From: an uncultured Pelagibacteraceae bacterium
GTDB lineage: Bacteria; Pseudomonadota; Alphaproteobacteria; Pelagibacterales; Pelagibacteraceae
Direction of reading: 5' to 3'
Length of the DNA stretch: 64,000 nt
Assembly (NCBI GenBank): GCA_902589395.1
Contig: CACIST010000001.1
Location: 124,001 to 188,000 of the forward strand
The notes under the pieces were generated by a model. It searched no databases. It was given only the letters and a program-made list of their open reading frames with translations, and was not told the DNA's origin. A program made the position numbers and the translations under genes. How positions within the stretch are numbered: the stretch's first letter is position 1; each line of letters begins with the position of its first letter. Positions 9,472-29,529 of this stretch are shown here, piece after piece.

Positions 9472-10052
9472 TTTTGAAGTTCTAAATATTCCTTAATCTT
9501 TTTAATAGGTAGACCCATTATGGTATCTTCATCTCCTTCGATACTTGAAAATAAAGTTCTTCCCTCACCCTCAATTTGATAAACATTATATGCGTATAAT
9601 TTTTCGTCACTAATTTTATTAAGATACAATAATAGTTCGTTTTCGGAAAAATTTTTCATTGTTAAATATGCTTTATCTGAGTAATTCCAAATCATCGATC
9701 CATTTTTAGAAATACAAACTGAACTAATTAAAGAGTGTTTCTTTCCATTGAGTTTTTTTAAAATTTTAAGTGCCTCATCCCTACTTTCAGGTTTTGATAT
9801 TAACTCACCCGATAGGTCTATTACACTATCTGCGCCTAAAACAAGCCTATTGTTCTTTTTTTGACTTACTTTATTTGCTTTTAATTCGGCAAGATTTTTA
9901 GATATCATTTCTGGCGAAGCTCCTTCTTTTATTAAACTCTCTTTGATTGGTTCTTCATCTACATTTGATACCTCAACATCACATAGGACATTATGTAGAT
10001 TCAGGATTTCTTTTCTGATCTTACTTTTTGATGCCAATATAATTTTAAGCAT
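9468..10052 (-). CDS. maf: Maf/YhdE-family nucleoside triphosphate pyrophosphatase
   Basis: IILASKSKIRKEIL, VLGADSVIDLSGE, GKKHSLISSVCI, IEGDEDTIMGLPI. Confidence 0.93.
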   Translation of the reverse strand: MLKIILASKSKIRKEILNLHNVLCDVEVSNVDEEPIKESLIKEGASPEMISKNLAELKANKVSQKKNNRLVLGADSVIDLSGELISKPESRDEALKILKKLNGKKHSLISSVCISKNGSMIWNYSDKAYLTMKNFSENELLLYLNKISDEKLYAYNVYQIEGEGRTLFSSIEGDEDTIMGLPIKKIKEYLELQK

Positions 10053-10872
10053 TTTTTTTATTTTTTATCTCAAAAATTTTTATTACTGACGCTGCTGTTT
10101 CCTCAACAGATTTTCTTGTTACATCTATCGTTGGCCAATTATTTTCCTTGAATAATTTTCTAGCACTATTTAGTTCATTTTTAATCTTATCAATGTTTAC
10201 ATATTCACTATTTTGATCCTCTTTCAACGAATTCAATCTATTTTTTCTTAAGTCATATAATCTTTCTGCTTCTGTAACTAAGCCAACAACGCATGGTCTG
10301 AAATTTTTTTCTGTAACTTTAGATGGTATAGAATTTTTATTTATTAGCGGAATATTTGAAGTTTTGTACCCTCTATTAGCCAAATATATGGAAGTTGGTG
10401 TTTTACTTGTTCTACTTACACCTAATAAAATAATATCTGATTTCTCTATATCATCAGTTTGATTACCATCATCATGGTTCATGGTGAATTGGATAGCTTC
10501 AATTCTGTCATAGTATTCTTCATTTAAAATATGTTGCCCACTTGGTTGGTGAGAAGCTTTTTGATTTAAGACCTTTGAAAAATTTAAAATCAGGTCTCCA
10601 AGAACTCCAAAACAAGGTATATTTCTTTCGTAGGCTTTTTCTGTAAGATATTTTGCTAATTTACTATTAACTATAGTATATAAAATAATAGAATTTTTAT
10701 CTTTTTTTGCCTGTTTTAGTATAGCTAGAGTTTGACTTTCGGTACGAGTAAAGGAAAAATGATTTGTCTCGTATTCGAAATTAGGAAATTGTGCTTTCAG
10801 AGCTAAAAAAATTCTATCAAGTGTTTCCCCTGTAGAGTCTGATATTAAATATATTTGATATAAATTTCTCAT
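10045..10872 (-). CDS. PEP synthetase regulatory protein / kinase-pyrophosphorylase (DUF299)
   Basis: YLISDSTGETLDR, GQHILNEEYYDRIEAIQFTMNHDDG, ILLGVSRTSKTPTSIYLANRGYK. Confidence 0.95.
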   Translation of the reverse strand: MRNLYQIYLISDSTGETLDRIFLALKAQFPNFEYETNHFSFTRTESQTLAILKQAKKDKNSIILYTIVNSKLAKYLTEKAYERNIPCFGVLGDLILNFSKVLNQKASHQPSGQHILNEEYYDRIEAIQFTMNHDDGNQTDDIEKSDIILLGVSRTSKTPTSIYLANRGYKTSNIPLINKNSIPSKVTEKNFRPCVVGLVTEAERLYDLRKNRLNSLKEDQNSEYVNIDKIKNELNSARKLFKENNWPTIDVTRKSVEETAASVIKIFEIKNKKNA

Positions 10873-11156
10873 GTATAAAGTGTTTATAATTTATAAGTAA
10901 AATAAGAAAAATTCAGATTTACTCCTATGGATAATTATAGTTCGTTTTTTATCCATCAAATTAACTAAATTATAAAATGTTAACAAAGTTATACATAATA
11001 TACATAAAATATGAGAAATCTTAATTAATCCCTATAAAATCTAGCTAAATAGATGTCTAAATTATTAATAAAAAGTTAATAAACTGTGATAATTGACTAA
11101 TTTACGTTATTCACAATACATAATACTAATAAAGTAAATAATATTTATCTATTTAT
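10873..11156. other. Candidate chromosomal replication origin (oriC)
   Basis: Largest intergenic gap, extremely AT-rich, divergent PPRP gene/hemE. DnaA-box-like 9-mers: TATGGATAA (reverse TTATCCATA) 10926-10934, TTATCCATC 10949-10957, TTATACATA 10989-10997, TTATTCACA 11107-11115. hemE-adjacent origins are known in Caulobacter and predicted in Rickettsia. Confidence 0.7.
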
Positions 11157-12158
11157 ATGGGTCCCATAACTAACTGTATTAAAAATAAAGATACTAAAAC
11201 TAATCCTATATGGTTAATGAGACAGGCAGGAAGGTATTTACCTGAATTTCGAGAGATAAGAAAAAAAAATACAGACTTTATAAAACTTTGTCTAGACTGT
11301 GATCTGGCATCTGAAATAACTCTTCAGCCTATAAAGAGATTTGGGTTTGATGGTGCAGTAATATTTTCTGATATTTTGATGTTACCATATGGTCTTGGTC
11401 AAAAAGTAGAATTTGAAAAAAACTTTGGGCCAAAGCTTGGAGAGATAGAATTAGATAATATTAAAAATGTTGATGAAATTAACTTTACAGAAAAAGTTTA
11501 TAAAGTTTACAAAGCAATTTCCAAAACTTCCCAGGATCCTTTAATGGATAATAAAGACATGATAGGATTTGTTGGAGCTCCATGGACTATTCTTGTATAT
11601 ATGATTAATAGATCATCACCAAAAAAAGGTCTAACAGGTGAATTCTTTAAAGATGAATTTTTAATAAATAGACTATTAGGAGTTATTGAAAAATTCTTAA
11701 AAGTTCATATAAAAAATCAAGTTGAGGCTGGAGCTAAAGTAATTCAAATTTTTGATAGTTGGGCCGGTTTATTAAATGATAAAATTCCTGAATATATTTA
11801 TATACCCACATTAAATATTGTGGAATATGTTAAACAATTAGGTGTTCCTGTAATTTGTTTTCCAAGAGGTATTAAAGATTACAAAAATTTCTGTGAAATA
11901 GTTAAACCAGATGCAGTAAATATAGATTATGATGTCGATCCGAGGAAGATAACTAATGAAATTAAGATACCAGTGCAAGGTGGTCTTGATCCAAAAGTTC
12001 TATTAAGTGATACACAAACCTTAAAGACAGAAGTTGAAAAATATCTAAATATTTTTAAAGATCATCCTTATATTTTTAATTTAGGACATGGTATTCTTCC
12101 TGAAACAAAAATTGAAATGGTAGAAGATTTGATTAAAATTGTAAGAAATTTTAAATGA
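11157..12158 (+). CDS. hemE: Uroporphyrinogen decarboxylase
   Basis: PIWLMRQAGRYLPEFREIR, FSDILMLPYGLG, GFVGAPWTILVYMI, FNLGHGILPET. Confidence 0.97.
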   Translation: MGPITNCIKNKDTKTNPIWLMRQAGRYLPEFREIRKKNTDFIKLCLDCDLASEITLQPIKRFGFDGAVIFSDILMLPYGLGQKVEFEKNFGPKLGEIELDNIKNVDEINFTEKVYKVYKAISKTSQDPLMDNKDMIGFVGAPWTILVYMINRSSPKKGLTGEFFKDEFLINRLLGVIEKFLKVHIKNQVEAGAKVIQIFDSWAGLLNDKIPEYIYIPTLNIVEYVKQLGVPVICFPRGIKDYKNFCEIVKPDAVNIDYDVDPRKITNEIKIPVQGGLDPKVLLSDTQTLKTEVEKYLNIFKDHPYIFNLGHGILPETKIEMVEDLIKIVRNFK

Positions 12159-17318: not shown

Positions 17319-19190
17319 ATGAAAAATGAGATGTCATTTGATGTAGTTGTAATTGGTGGTGGTCATGCTGGATGTGAAGCAGCAGCAGCATCTGCTAGAT
17401 TGGGTGTAAATACTGCCTTATTTACACACAAATTTGACACTATTGGCGAGATGTCATGTAACCCAGCTATTGGGGGATTAGGCAAAGGTCATCTTGTTCG
17501 AGAGATAGATGCACTTGATGGTGTAATGGGTGAGGTTGCAGATAAATCAGGAATTCAATTTAGATTATTAAATAGAAGTAGAGGTCCGGCTGTCCGTGGA
17601 CCACGTACGCAAAGTGATAGGTCATTATATAAGAAATATATGCAAGAAAAACTTGTAAAGTACTGTAATTTAAGTATTTTTTCTGATCCTGTAATTGAGT
17701 TTATTTTTCAAAAAAACAATATAATCGGCTTTATTACACAACAAGGTAAAAAAGTACTGTCATCAAAAGTAATTCTAACAACTGGAACTTTTCTAAATGG
17801 TTTAATTCATATTGGTAATGAAAAAACGCCTGCAGGAAGATTTAATGAAAAACCATCAACAGGGTTAAGCGAACAATTAGAAAAATATAATTTTAAGATT
17901 GGAAGATTAAAAACTGGCACGCCTCCAAGACTTGATGCAACGACAATTAATTTTGAAAAACTTGAAGAGCAGCATGCTGATGAAGATCCATACTTTTTTT
18001 CTTTTCTCACAAAAAAAAATATTAATAGACAAATTTCATGTAGGATGACTTATACCAATCAAGCAGTACATGAGATCATATCTAAAAACATAAAAAGTAG
18101 TGCTATGTACTCAGGAAGTATCCAAGGTGTCGGTCCTAGATATTGTCCTTCTATAGAAGATAAAATTGTAAAGTTTGCTGATAAACAAAAACATCAAATA
18201 TTTTTAGAGCCAGAGGGTCTAAATGATAAAACAATCTACCCTAATGGTATCTCAACTTCTCTACCTGCTAGAATACAACAAGAAATATGCAATAATATCA
18301 ATGGTTTAGAAAATGTCAAAATTTTAAGGCCAGGATACGCAATAGAATATGATTTTGTGGATCCAAGGGAGCTATTCCTAACTTTAGAGACAAAAAAAAT
18401 TAAAAATCTTTACCTTGCAGGACAAATAAATGGAACAACAGGCTATGAAGAAGCTGCAGCACAAGGATTGATAGCTGGAATAAACGCTGTTCTCTCTTTT
18501 AAAGGCGAAGAACCATTTATACTTAATAGATCAGAAGCATACATAGGTGTCATGATAGATGATTTAGTCACAAAAGGAGTTGCAGAACCCTATAGAATGT
18601 TCACTTCAAGGGCGGAATACAGGCTATCTTTGAGATCTGATAATGCAGATATACGACTTACCCAAAAAGGAATTGATATTGGTTTAATATTGGATGAAAG
18701 GAAAATTATATATAAAGAGAAAGCGTTAAAACTTGAAAAAAGTCTTAAAAGTATGGAAAATTCATTAATTTCCCCGTCAAAAGCATCTAAATTTGGAATA
18801 AATATTGCAAAAGATGGGATTAAAAGAAATGCAATAGAAATATTAAGGCAAAAGTCAGTAAATATGAGTAAAATTAGGGAAATTTGGCCAGAAATTAAAT
18901 ATGTTTCACGTGAAATCGATGAGCAAATTGAGATAAAGGCTCATTATAAAGGTTATTTAAAGAAACAAAATGCTGATATTTTAGCATTCAAAAGGGATGA
19001 GAATCTTAAAATACCAGAAAATTTAGATTATGATCAATTTTCTGGACTATCAAATGAAGTTAAGTCAAAATTTAAAGAAATAAAGCCAAAAACACTTGGT
19101 CAAGCACTTAGAATAGATGGAATTACTCCAGCGGCAGTATATATTTTGTTGTCTCATGTCAAAAGAAAGTCTATTAAGCATATAGCTTGA
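17319..19190 (+). CDS. mnmG: tRNA uridine-5-carboxymethylaminomethyl synthesis enzyme MnmG
   Basis: [61 protein letters not shown]. Confidence 0.97.
18902..18917. promoter_or_regulatory. Degenerate parS-like site (14/16 match)
   Basis: TGTTTCACGTGAAATC inside mnmG versus TGTTTCACGTGAAACA. Confidence 0.5.
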
Positions 19191-19831
19191 TTGATTCGAA
19201 AATAATAAAAACTGAAAAAATTTATATCCCAAATGTTTCACGTGAAACACTTAAGGAGTTGAGAGACTATTCTCAGTCAATATTGAGTACAAACAAGAAA
19301 ATAAATTTGATAAGTTCAAGTACAGAAAAGTCAATAAATACAAGACATATTTACGATAGTGCACAAACCATTGAATTTATTAATAAAAATGACATTAAAG
19401 TATGCACTGATCTTGGCTCAGGTGCAGGGCTTCCTAGTATAGTTTTGGGTATTTTGATGAAATCTAAAAAGCAAGGTTTTAAGCTAATTTTTTATGAGAA
19501 GAGCTATCATAAGAGCAATTTTTTAAAAGAGATGGTAGAAAAGTTTAAATTGGAAGCAAAAATTCACCAAAAAAATATATTTGAAGAGAAAAATTTAGTT
19601 ACAGATGTAATAATTTGTCGAGCGTTCAAACCTTTGCCTGTCATTTTTGATATAGCAACAAAGAATTTTAAAAACTTTAAGTACATAGTTATGTATTTAG
19701 GAAAAAGTAGAAAAAAAATCTTGAAAGATGTTTCTACAAAATGGAAATTTGACTTGGAGGAAATGAAAAGTTTAACAAGTGATGAGTCATCAGTAGTAAA
19801 AATTTCAAATTTAAAAAAAATATATGAGTAG
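19187..19831 (+). CDS. rsmG: 16S rRNA (guanine(527)-N7)-methyltransferase RsmG
   Basis: TTG start; [36 protein letters not shown]; between mnmG and parA. Confidence 0.93.
19234..19249. promoter_or_regulatory. parS centromere site (perfect palindrome)
   Basis: TGTTTCACGTGAAACA, identical to the classical ParB-binding parS consensus; inside rsmG, about 575 bp upstream of parA. Confidence 0.92.
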
Positions 19832-20624
19832 AAAAACTATATCGGTCATTAACCAAAAAGGTGGAGTGGGCAAGACTACAACAGTCATCAATCTTGCTGC
19901 TGGGTTAACGATAAAAGGAAAAAAAATTCTTGTAATTGATCTTGATCCACAAGGGAATGCTACAACAGGCTTTGGATTGTCCAATGCAACAAGTTCTGAT
20001 CAAACAATTTATAATGTTTTAAATGGAAATAAAAAAATTTCAGATGTAATCCAGTCTACAGGTTTTGAAAATTTAGATTTGATATCATCAAATATTGATT
20101 TATCCGGTCTAGAGGTGGAGACAGCAGGTGATAGTCGTAGAGCCTTCAAATTAAAAGATGAATTAACCCTGATTTTAAACAATTCTGAGCCATCTTACGA
20201 TTATATCATAATTGACTGCCCACCATCCTTAAGTCTCCTTACAATCATGGCATTGGTGGCCTCTGATGCGCTAGTTGTACCACTTCAGACAGAATTCTTT
20301 GCTTTAGAGGGGCTCACACAGCTTATGAAAACAATTGAGAGGATAAAATCGAACCTAAATCCATCTTTAGACATAAGAGGAATACTTCTCACAATGTATG
20401 ATAAAAGAAATAAATTATCCGGTGAGGTTGAGACTGAGGCTAGAAACTATTTTAAAGATAAAGTTTATAGCACTGCTGTTCCAAGAAATGTTAGATTATC
20501 AGAAGCACCCTCGCATGGCGTTCCAGTTCTAATTTATGACAAGTCATGTCCAGGTAGTAGAGCATATTTTAGTTTTACAGAGGAATTTTTAAATCAAGAT
20601 AAACCAGTGGAGAGCGCAGCATGA
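19824..20624 (+). CDS. parA: Chromosome partitioning ATPase ParA
   Basis: ISVINQKGGVGKTTTVINLAAGL deviant Walker A; DLDPQGNATTG; IIDCPPSLSLLT. Confidence 0.97.
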   Translation: MSRKTISVINQKGGVGKTTTVINLAAGLTIKGKKILVIDLDPQGNATTGFGLSNATSSDQTIYNVLNGNKKISDVIQSTGFENLDLISSNIDLSGLEVETAGDSRRAFKLKDELTLILNNSEPSYDYIIIDCPPSLSLLTIMALVASDALVVPLQTEFFALEGLTQLMKTIERIKSNLNPSLDIRGILLTMYDKRNKLSGEVETEARNYFKDKVYSTAVPRNVRLSEAPSHGVPVLIYDKSCPGSRAYFSFTEEFLNQDKPVESAA

Positions 20625-21472
20625 TTAATCCGTTTAAATCAAAAAAAGGACTAGGAAGAGGATTGTCTTCCCTAATAGGTGATAGCGAAACAATTGACGA
20701 TAAAAAAAATGTTTCAATAAGCTCACTAGTTAGAAATAAGTATCAACCCAGAAAAAAATTTGATGAAGTTAGTTTGGAGGAATTAACTAATTCTATAAGA
20801 GAGAGTGGAATTATCCAACCTATCATTGTAAGACCATCTTCTAATGAAGAAAACAAATTTGAAATAATAGCTGGAGAAAGAAGGTGGCAGGCTGCACAAT
20901 ATGCAGGACTCCATGAAGTGCCGATTGTTGTAACTAATATAGATAATCTTAAATCATTAGAATTCGCAATTGTTGAAAATGTTCAAAGGAAAGATTTAAA
21001 CCCAATTGAGGAAGCTGAAGGTTATAAAAGATTAATCGATGAATTCGGTTACGATCAAGATAAAGTATCAAAATTTATAGGAAAAAGCAGAGCTCATATA
21101 TCAAATTGTTTACGACTATTAACTCTCCCACAAGAAATTATAGAATTAGTAATTGAAGAAAAGTTATCACAAGGTCATGCAAAAATTTTAGTTGGTTTAG
21201 ATAATGCTATTTTTTTGGCAAAGAAAATTGTTAAAAAAAAATTATCAGTCAGGCAAGCAGAAAGTTTAGTTCGCATGTTGAAATTTAGTTCTAATAATTC
21301 CACTAAGAAGAAAGATCCAAATATTTTAACTCTTGAAGAGGAGTTAACAGATAAAATTGGGATGAGAGTTTTTGTAAAGAATAAAAGAAATAATTCTGGA
21401 ACTATTAGTTTGGAATATAAAGGGGTTGATCAATTAGATAGATTGGTAGAAATTATTAAGCGTAATTACTAA
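20621..21472 (+). CDS. parB: Chromosome partitioning protein ParB
   Basis: KKGLGRGLSSLIGD, NKYQPRKKFDE, EIIAGERRWQAA, ENVQRKDLNPIEEA, GKSRAHISNCLRLL. Confidence 0.97.
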   Translation: MINPFKSKKGLGRGLSSLIGDSETIDDKKNVSISSLVRNKYQPRKKFDEVSLEELTNSIRESGIIQPIIVRPSSNEENKFEIIAGERRWQAAQYAGLHEVPIVVTNIDNLKSLEFAIVENVQRKDLNPIEEAEGYKRLIDEFGYDQDKVSKFIGKSRAHISNCLRLLTLPQEIIELVIEEKLSQGHAKILVGLDNAIFLAKKIVKKKLSVRQAESLVRMLKFSSNNSTKKKDPNILTLEEELTDKIGMRVFVKNKRNNSGTISLEYKGVDQLDRLVEIIKRNY

Positions 21473-28959: not shown

Positions 28960-29529
28960 ATGAAAAACCAAAATTTAGTAATTTATGATTTTAATATAAT
29001 TTATGACTTATTAAAAGAGATAGAGGACTTTTTTAACTTTAACTTAATTAAAATTGAAAAATCTAAACTCGATGATCAAAAGATTAAAAATCAAGAAAAT
29101 TATTTGATTATTTCAAAAAAAGAAATAGCTGGTTTTGATAACCAAATCATAATTAATCAATTTCCATTAGAAATTACAAAGTTAATAGAAAATATAAACA
29201 TTAAATTTTTAAAAAAAATATATAATCAGCAATCAGAAATAAATTTAGGAAGTTATAAATTAAATTTAAATTCTAGAAAAATATTTAATGAAAATAATTC
29301 ACTAGATTTAACTGAAAGAGAGGCAAATATTATTGTTTTTATTAACAAATCAAAAAAACCTGTAAAAATTTCTCAACTTCAGATTCAAGTGTGGGGTCAT
29401 AATTCAAAATTAGAAACTCACACTGTAGAAACACATATATATAGATTAAGAACAAAAATTAGTAAAAATTTTAAAGATAACAATTTTATAATAAGTACTA
29501 AGGAGGGATACTCGATCTTAAAAAAGTGA
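28960..29529 (+). CDS. OmpR/PhoB-type winged-helix DNA-binding protein (orphan)
   Basis: C-terminal LNSRKIFNENNSLDLTEREANIIVFINK...VETHIYRLRTKIS...ISTKEGYSI; N-terminus lacks clear phosphoacceptor receiver motifs. Confidence 0.82.
   Translation: MKNQNLVIYDFNIIYDLLKEIEDFFNFNLIKIEKSKLDDQKIKNQENYLIISKKEIAGFDNQIIINQFPLEITKLIENINIKFLKKIYNQQSEINLGSYKLNLNSRKIFNENNSLDLTEREANIIVFINKSKKPVKISQLQIQVWGHNSKLETHTVETHIYRLRTKISKNFKDNNFIISTKEGYSILKK

Follow-up and report, generated by a model that had tools for sequence, protein, structure and literature searches.

A putative chromosomal origin of replication between PPRP and hemE in a SAR11-lineage alphaproteobacterium

The intergenic region between PPRP/ppsR and hemE (positions 10873-11156, no strand) is very probably the chromosomal origin of replication (oriC) of this SAR11-lineage alphaproteobacterium. 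The assignment, which had been proposed from the letters of this DNA, is computational and is supported by the skew interval of a congener and by DnaA boxes whose positions are the same across more than 100 relatives. The gap stands out by its position, its composition and near-fixed length, its conserved boxes and trios, the skew and its independence from either flanking gene.

The PPRP-hemE intergenic region

The window, i.e. the whole stretch of 64,000 nucleotides that was analyzed, belongs to a contig of 268,756 bp from a MAG with 80% completeness. The gap measures 284 bp and has a GC content of 17.6% (82% AT versus 71% AT for the contig). On its left lies PPRP/ppsR (COG1806, DUF299; 10045-10872, minus strand), which matched NF003742 with 302.9 bits (cut-off 225). 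On its right lies hemE (11157-12158, plus strand), which matched TIGR01464 with 312.9 bits (cut-off 302.95). The two genes are divergent and both point away from the gap, so the description as an AT-rich gap between outward-facing genes was accurate. It had also been called the longest non-coding gap between core genes, and indeed no longer stretch devoid of open reading frames of at least 80 aa was present in the window, window ends excluded. Neither tRNAs nor Rfam RNAs were found in or near the gap. A position beside hemE and/or a COG1806 gene and an AT content above the genome average (here judged against the contig) are features of the alphaproteobacterial hemE/COG1806 type of oriC, and both were observed.

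DnaA boxes and their conservation

The original prediction was built on four DnaA-box-like 9-mers, all of which were located exactly at the positions named (10926, 10949, 10989, and 11107). At up to one mismatch, the gap contains four words resembling TTATNCACA, one of them exact; the 9-mer at 10949, TTATCCATC, has two mismatches. Words with at most one mismatch to TTATNCACA were not enriched across the window (82 found, 101 expected), and the local excess in the gap is modest because the DNA is so AT-rich. Four 9-mers on a single sequence constitute weak evidence for oriC.

Related loci were more informative. Both genes were readable in 108 of them (103 unique gaps), and the pair was divergent in every case, with a gap of 261-286 bp (median 283) and a GC content of about 17%. 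Across the 108 loci, TTATNCACA occurred 77 times as compared with 3.0 ± 1.5 times in dinucleotide shuffles, and TTATNAACA 196 times as compared with 13. The excess remained when all gaps were collapsed to 44 representatives with less than 75% identity (23 versus 1.3 for TTATNCACA and 129 versus 14.5 for TTATNNACA). DnaA boxes above chance level and denser than elsewhere in the genome, a further feature of hemE/COG1806-type origins, were thus present. The expectation that the four 9-mers would be conserved held in part. TTATNNACA was found at the column of 11107 in 83 of the 103 unique gaps and at that of 10989 in 26, whereas even the closest relatives did not share the words at 10926 and 10949. 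Because two of the four failed in this way, the quartet was rejected as an origin signature and replaced by the conserved positions.

The main box, TTATTCACA (11107-11115, plus strand), adjoins the candidate unwinding region. Over the 103 loci, T4 and A7 of its columns are invariant and C8 and A9 nearly so; in several relatives this right-hand box has drifted off consensus, e.g. to CTATTAACA or TTATTAACG. At the other end of the gap, near the PPRP start, a box-like word overlooked in the original prediction, TTATAAACA (10881-10889, minus strand), is present in 85/103 loci and is retained in other genera too and where hemE has moved away. Between these two, the position 10989-10997 (plus strand) is degenerate here (TTATACATA) and reads TTATTAACA in others. 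The position 11063-11071 (minus strand; 42/103 loci) reads TTATTAATA here and TTATTAACA in 36 relatives. Further box-like positions follow from 11063 in 11-bp steps at 11074 and 11085 (9/103 loci each), and another lies at 10978 (minus strand, 22/103). The fixed box columns are often 10-11 bp apart. A conserved segment without any match to a DnaA box, TTGACTAATTTACG and its variants (11093-11106), directly precedes the main box; its C11105 was found in 103/103 loci.

A box-spacer-trio module next to hemE

To the right of the box at 11107 lie a 5-bp spacer, ATACA (11116-11120, plus strand; C at 11119 in 97/103), and four DnaA-trio-like triplets, TAA TAC TAA TAA (11121-11132, plus strand), which had escaped notice in the first description of the gap. 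Each of the four triplets begins with TA in 93-103 of the 103 loci, and the third base is variable, mainly A or C. The triplets are the predicted start of strand separation. By its published definition, a basal unwinding system consists of a DnaA box and three or more NAN triplets, with 0-16 bp between them (PMC8287927). The arrangement of TTATTCACA, 5 bp, and four TAN triplets conforms to this definition, and opening of the strands by DnaA is predicted. Position past box and trios together with AT content points to 11121-11156, up to the hemE start codon, as a candidate duplex-unwinding region (no strand).

The module is rare outside the gap. TTATNCACA followed by at least three TAN triplets within 14 bp occurred once in the 268,756-bp contig and once in the complete chromosome of a congener (G012), each time in the gap; looser boxes with trios were found at a handful of other places in the two sequences. 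Box plus three TAN triplets was detected in 82 of 142 unique gaps as compared with 1.0 in shuffles, this being as far as the strict pattern reaches.

Rearranged relatives

In a genus of the same family (g5), hemE has been relocated; in genome G061 it lies about 580 kb from PPRP. In g5 (loci L280, L281, L340, and L341), hemE is part of an operon with overlapping starts, without gap and without boxes, and a hemH-like gene follows directly. An AT-rich gap with box and trios remains beside PPRP, now opposite rho. In it, TAA TAA triplets come after TTATAAACA, and the distance to PPRP is much the same. The converse situation was met in family f2. In the f2 genomes listed (L114-L127), PPRP was not found by protein search, in agreement with a Pfam search. 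hemE still faces maf in this family, across a gap of 262-278 bp that is similar in length to the gaps of PPRP-bearing relatives. These gaps contain CACA boxes and trio-like repeats, and most of them a GG patch; the repeat in L119 reads CAC AAC TAC TAC TAC TAC. Because hemE has moved in g5 and PPRP was not found in f2, the element is independent of either neighbor, which makes a simple promoter of hemE or of PPRP less likely.

The latter explanation would take the gap as a mere bidirectional promoter of PPRP and hemE, with DnaA boxes that control transcription and a TA run that serves as the -10 region of hemE. Two outward-facing genes do need promoters in or near the gap, the TA run is situated about 25-36 bp upstream of hemE, and 7 promoter-like words were counted in the region where 4.9 would be expected. 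Yet box and trios stayed behind at a similar distance from PPRP when hemE left without such a gap in g5, the gap persists in f2 without PPRP, the conservation has a three-base phase with a variable third base, and the skew independently places the origin at the gap. We therefore regard a promoter function alone as very unlikely.

Position in the chromosome

The genome from which the window derives is an 80%-complete MAG, and skew was for this reason analyzed in the congener G012, a complete chromosome of 1,343,202 bp (the same genus is also represented by the complete chromosome G067, 1,456,888 bp). The counterpart of the gap lies at 1.262 Mb in G012, and dnaA lies 62 kb off at 1.198-1.200 Mb. 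Raw cumulative GC skew formed a broad plateau at about 1.18-1.31 Mb with a minimum at 1.291 Mb and was set aside in favor of third-position GC skew (GC3) corrected for gene strand. A model with two change points placed the origin at 1.2718 Mb with a 2-log-unit support interval of 1.252-1.312 Mb. The gap falls inside this interval, 1.04 log units below the best position, as had been anticipated for a skew test on a complete genome. The amplitude of the cumulative skew (417) exceeded that of all 2000 permutations. A GC-skew shift at the site, which is another feature of hemE/COG1806-type origins, is thus present in G012 at a resolution of only about ±30 kb. AT3 skew was flat and compatible with the gap. 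In total, 54 exact copies of TTATNCACA occur in the G012 genome, and two of them within a 284-bp stretch are found in the counterpart of the gap only. In a genome of a second genus (G065), skew over the range of 0-800 kb climbed to about 0.52-0.6 Mb and then dropped, which fits a terminus lying opposite the gap, located at 1.09 Mb in this 1.16-Mb genome.

In many bacteria dnaA adjoins oriC, and a block bootstrap of the G012 skew minimum gave a wider interval (1.18-1.31 Mb) that takes in dnaA; nevertheless, dnaA falls beyond the 2-log-unit support interval given by the change-point model, and nowhere else in G012 are there two exact boxes per 284 bp or TTATNCACA with at least three trios, so that an origin near dnaA or elsewhere in the broad skew minimum is very unlikely.

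Comparison with known origins and proposed mechanism

The Caulobacter Cori and the predicted Rickettsia origin are situated between hemE and the COG1806 gene (PMC1914354). The literature thus agrees with the earlier statements that Cori adjoins hemE and that the Rickettsia origin was predicted in the hemE-RP001 gap. With Cori of Caulobacter crescentus, the SAR11 gap shares the flanking genes, the AT-rich composition, and several DnaA boxes, but it is shorter (284 versus 404 bp; PMC1914354). Five CtrA sites and one IHF site are known in Cori, whereas the gap of this window has neither the IHF consensus nor GANTC, and no CtrA protein was found. The predicted origin of Rickettsia prowazekii and Rickettsia typhi (hemE-RP001) resembles the gap in neighbors, orientation, and an AT content of about 82% and differs from it in a length of 383-396 bp and in the CtrA sites reported there (PMC1914354). 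As in the basal unwinding system known from Bacillus subtilis among other bacteria (PMC8287927), the SAR11 gap has a box that a short spacer separates from three or more NAN triplets, all in phase and on the strand of the box, with AT-rich DNA beyond. Unlike that system elsewhere, a single good box is present in most of the genus, the spacer is 5 bp instead of the common 10-13 bp, and the trios are TAA/TAC instead of the commonest 3'-GAT-5' (PMC8287927). The f2 relatives, with their CACA repeats and GG patch, are closer to the usual tandem form. The sequence evidence supports an origin of the hemE/COG1806 type, as in Caulobacter and Rickettsia, but one that would lack the CtrA control of Cori and carry a clear box-trio module.

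We propose that DnaA binds the box at 11107-11115 and, to the left of this box, weaker box-like sites at helical spacing. The protein would then polymerize rightward on one strand of the TAA-TAC-TAA-TAA trios (11121-11132). The AT-rich DNA between the trios and the hemE start would open, the helicase would be loaded there, and two forks would leave. Segregation of the new origins may be brought about by ParB acting at parS, 8 kb off. A more speculative and rather unlikely extension is a streamlined SAR11 origin of near-fixed length that has lost CtrA control, in which a single good box fires into TAA/TAC trios, weak boxes spaced by 11 bp set the timing, and CtrA is possibly replaced by an orphan winged-helix protein of the OmpR type whose gene lies 18 kb away.

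The type of site and its gene neighbors are already known from Caulobacter and Rickettsia; what is added is an origin fixed at the sequence level in SAR11. Among the papers searched, no published SAR11 oriC was found. That origins in this lineage are assigned by GC skew was borne out by a Pelagibacter ori placed with a GC-skew script (PMC9516812); a SAR11 origin has also been placed from coverage itself (PMC9589681). GRiD anchors the origin at dnaA (PMC7852909), which in G012 would misplace it by about 62 kb. SAR11 bacteria rank among the most numerous cells of the sea, and how fast they grow there is estimated from the difference in read depth between origin and terminus. An origin known at the sequence level would provide a fixed anchor for such estimates and a short substrate on which binding and unwinding by DnaA could be assayed. 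It would also make replication timing testable in an alphaproteobacterium reported to be without CtrA.

Partitioning and regulatory elements

The neighborhood of the gap includes partitioning functions, as stated in the original prediction, which had placed parAB/parS about 8 kb away. A perfect parS palindrome, TGTTTCACGTGAAACA, is located inside rsmG (19234-19249, plus strand), 8.1 kb from the gap and beside parA and parB (19824-21472, plus strand). ParB was recognized by TIGR00180 (199.3 bits); for ParA, the family matches stayed below cut-offs, and its assignment also draws on gene order. DnaA, like parAB and parS, is present. A second, imperfect parS-like palindrome with two mismatches was observed in gidA (18902-18917), 332 bp ahead of the perfect one. 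For P. ubique, absence of dif/Xer has been reported (PMC2731167).

CtrA sites together with the CtrA protein are a further feature of hemE/COG1806-type origins, and none of the OmpR-type regulators scanned reached the cut-off of the CtrA model, which agrees with a report that Pelagibacter lacks a ctrA ortholog (PMC2877005). This feature is not decisive, because predicted origins with no or few CtrA sites have been listed and CtrA was treated as possibly dispensable (PMC1914354). The gap contains one TTAA-N7-TTAA motif. Although no CtrA was found, this motif is enriched in related gaps (184 versus 52 ± 10 in shuffles), which might be a by-product, as the motif and the box-like words recur with the same 11-bp period. 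GANTC, the target of CcrM, was not found in the gap and is depleted in related gaps (10 versus 47 in shuffles); a CcrM homologue is present (cf. PMC3973325). The IHF consensus WATCAANNNNTTR, which may not be that of SAR11 IHF, did not occur in the gap, and three HU/IHF-family proteins are encoded.

The OmpR-type proteins found are PhoB, an orphan winged-helix protein, and two whose best listed matches all stay below the family cut-offs. The orphan protein (28960-29529, 189 aa) is encoded 18 kb from the gap and resembles response-regulator models in its C-terminal part only. A similar gene is located in G012 at 1244375-1244590, 16 kb from the gap.
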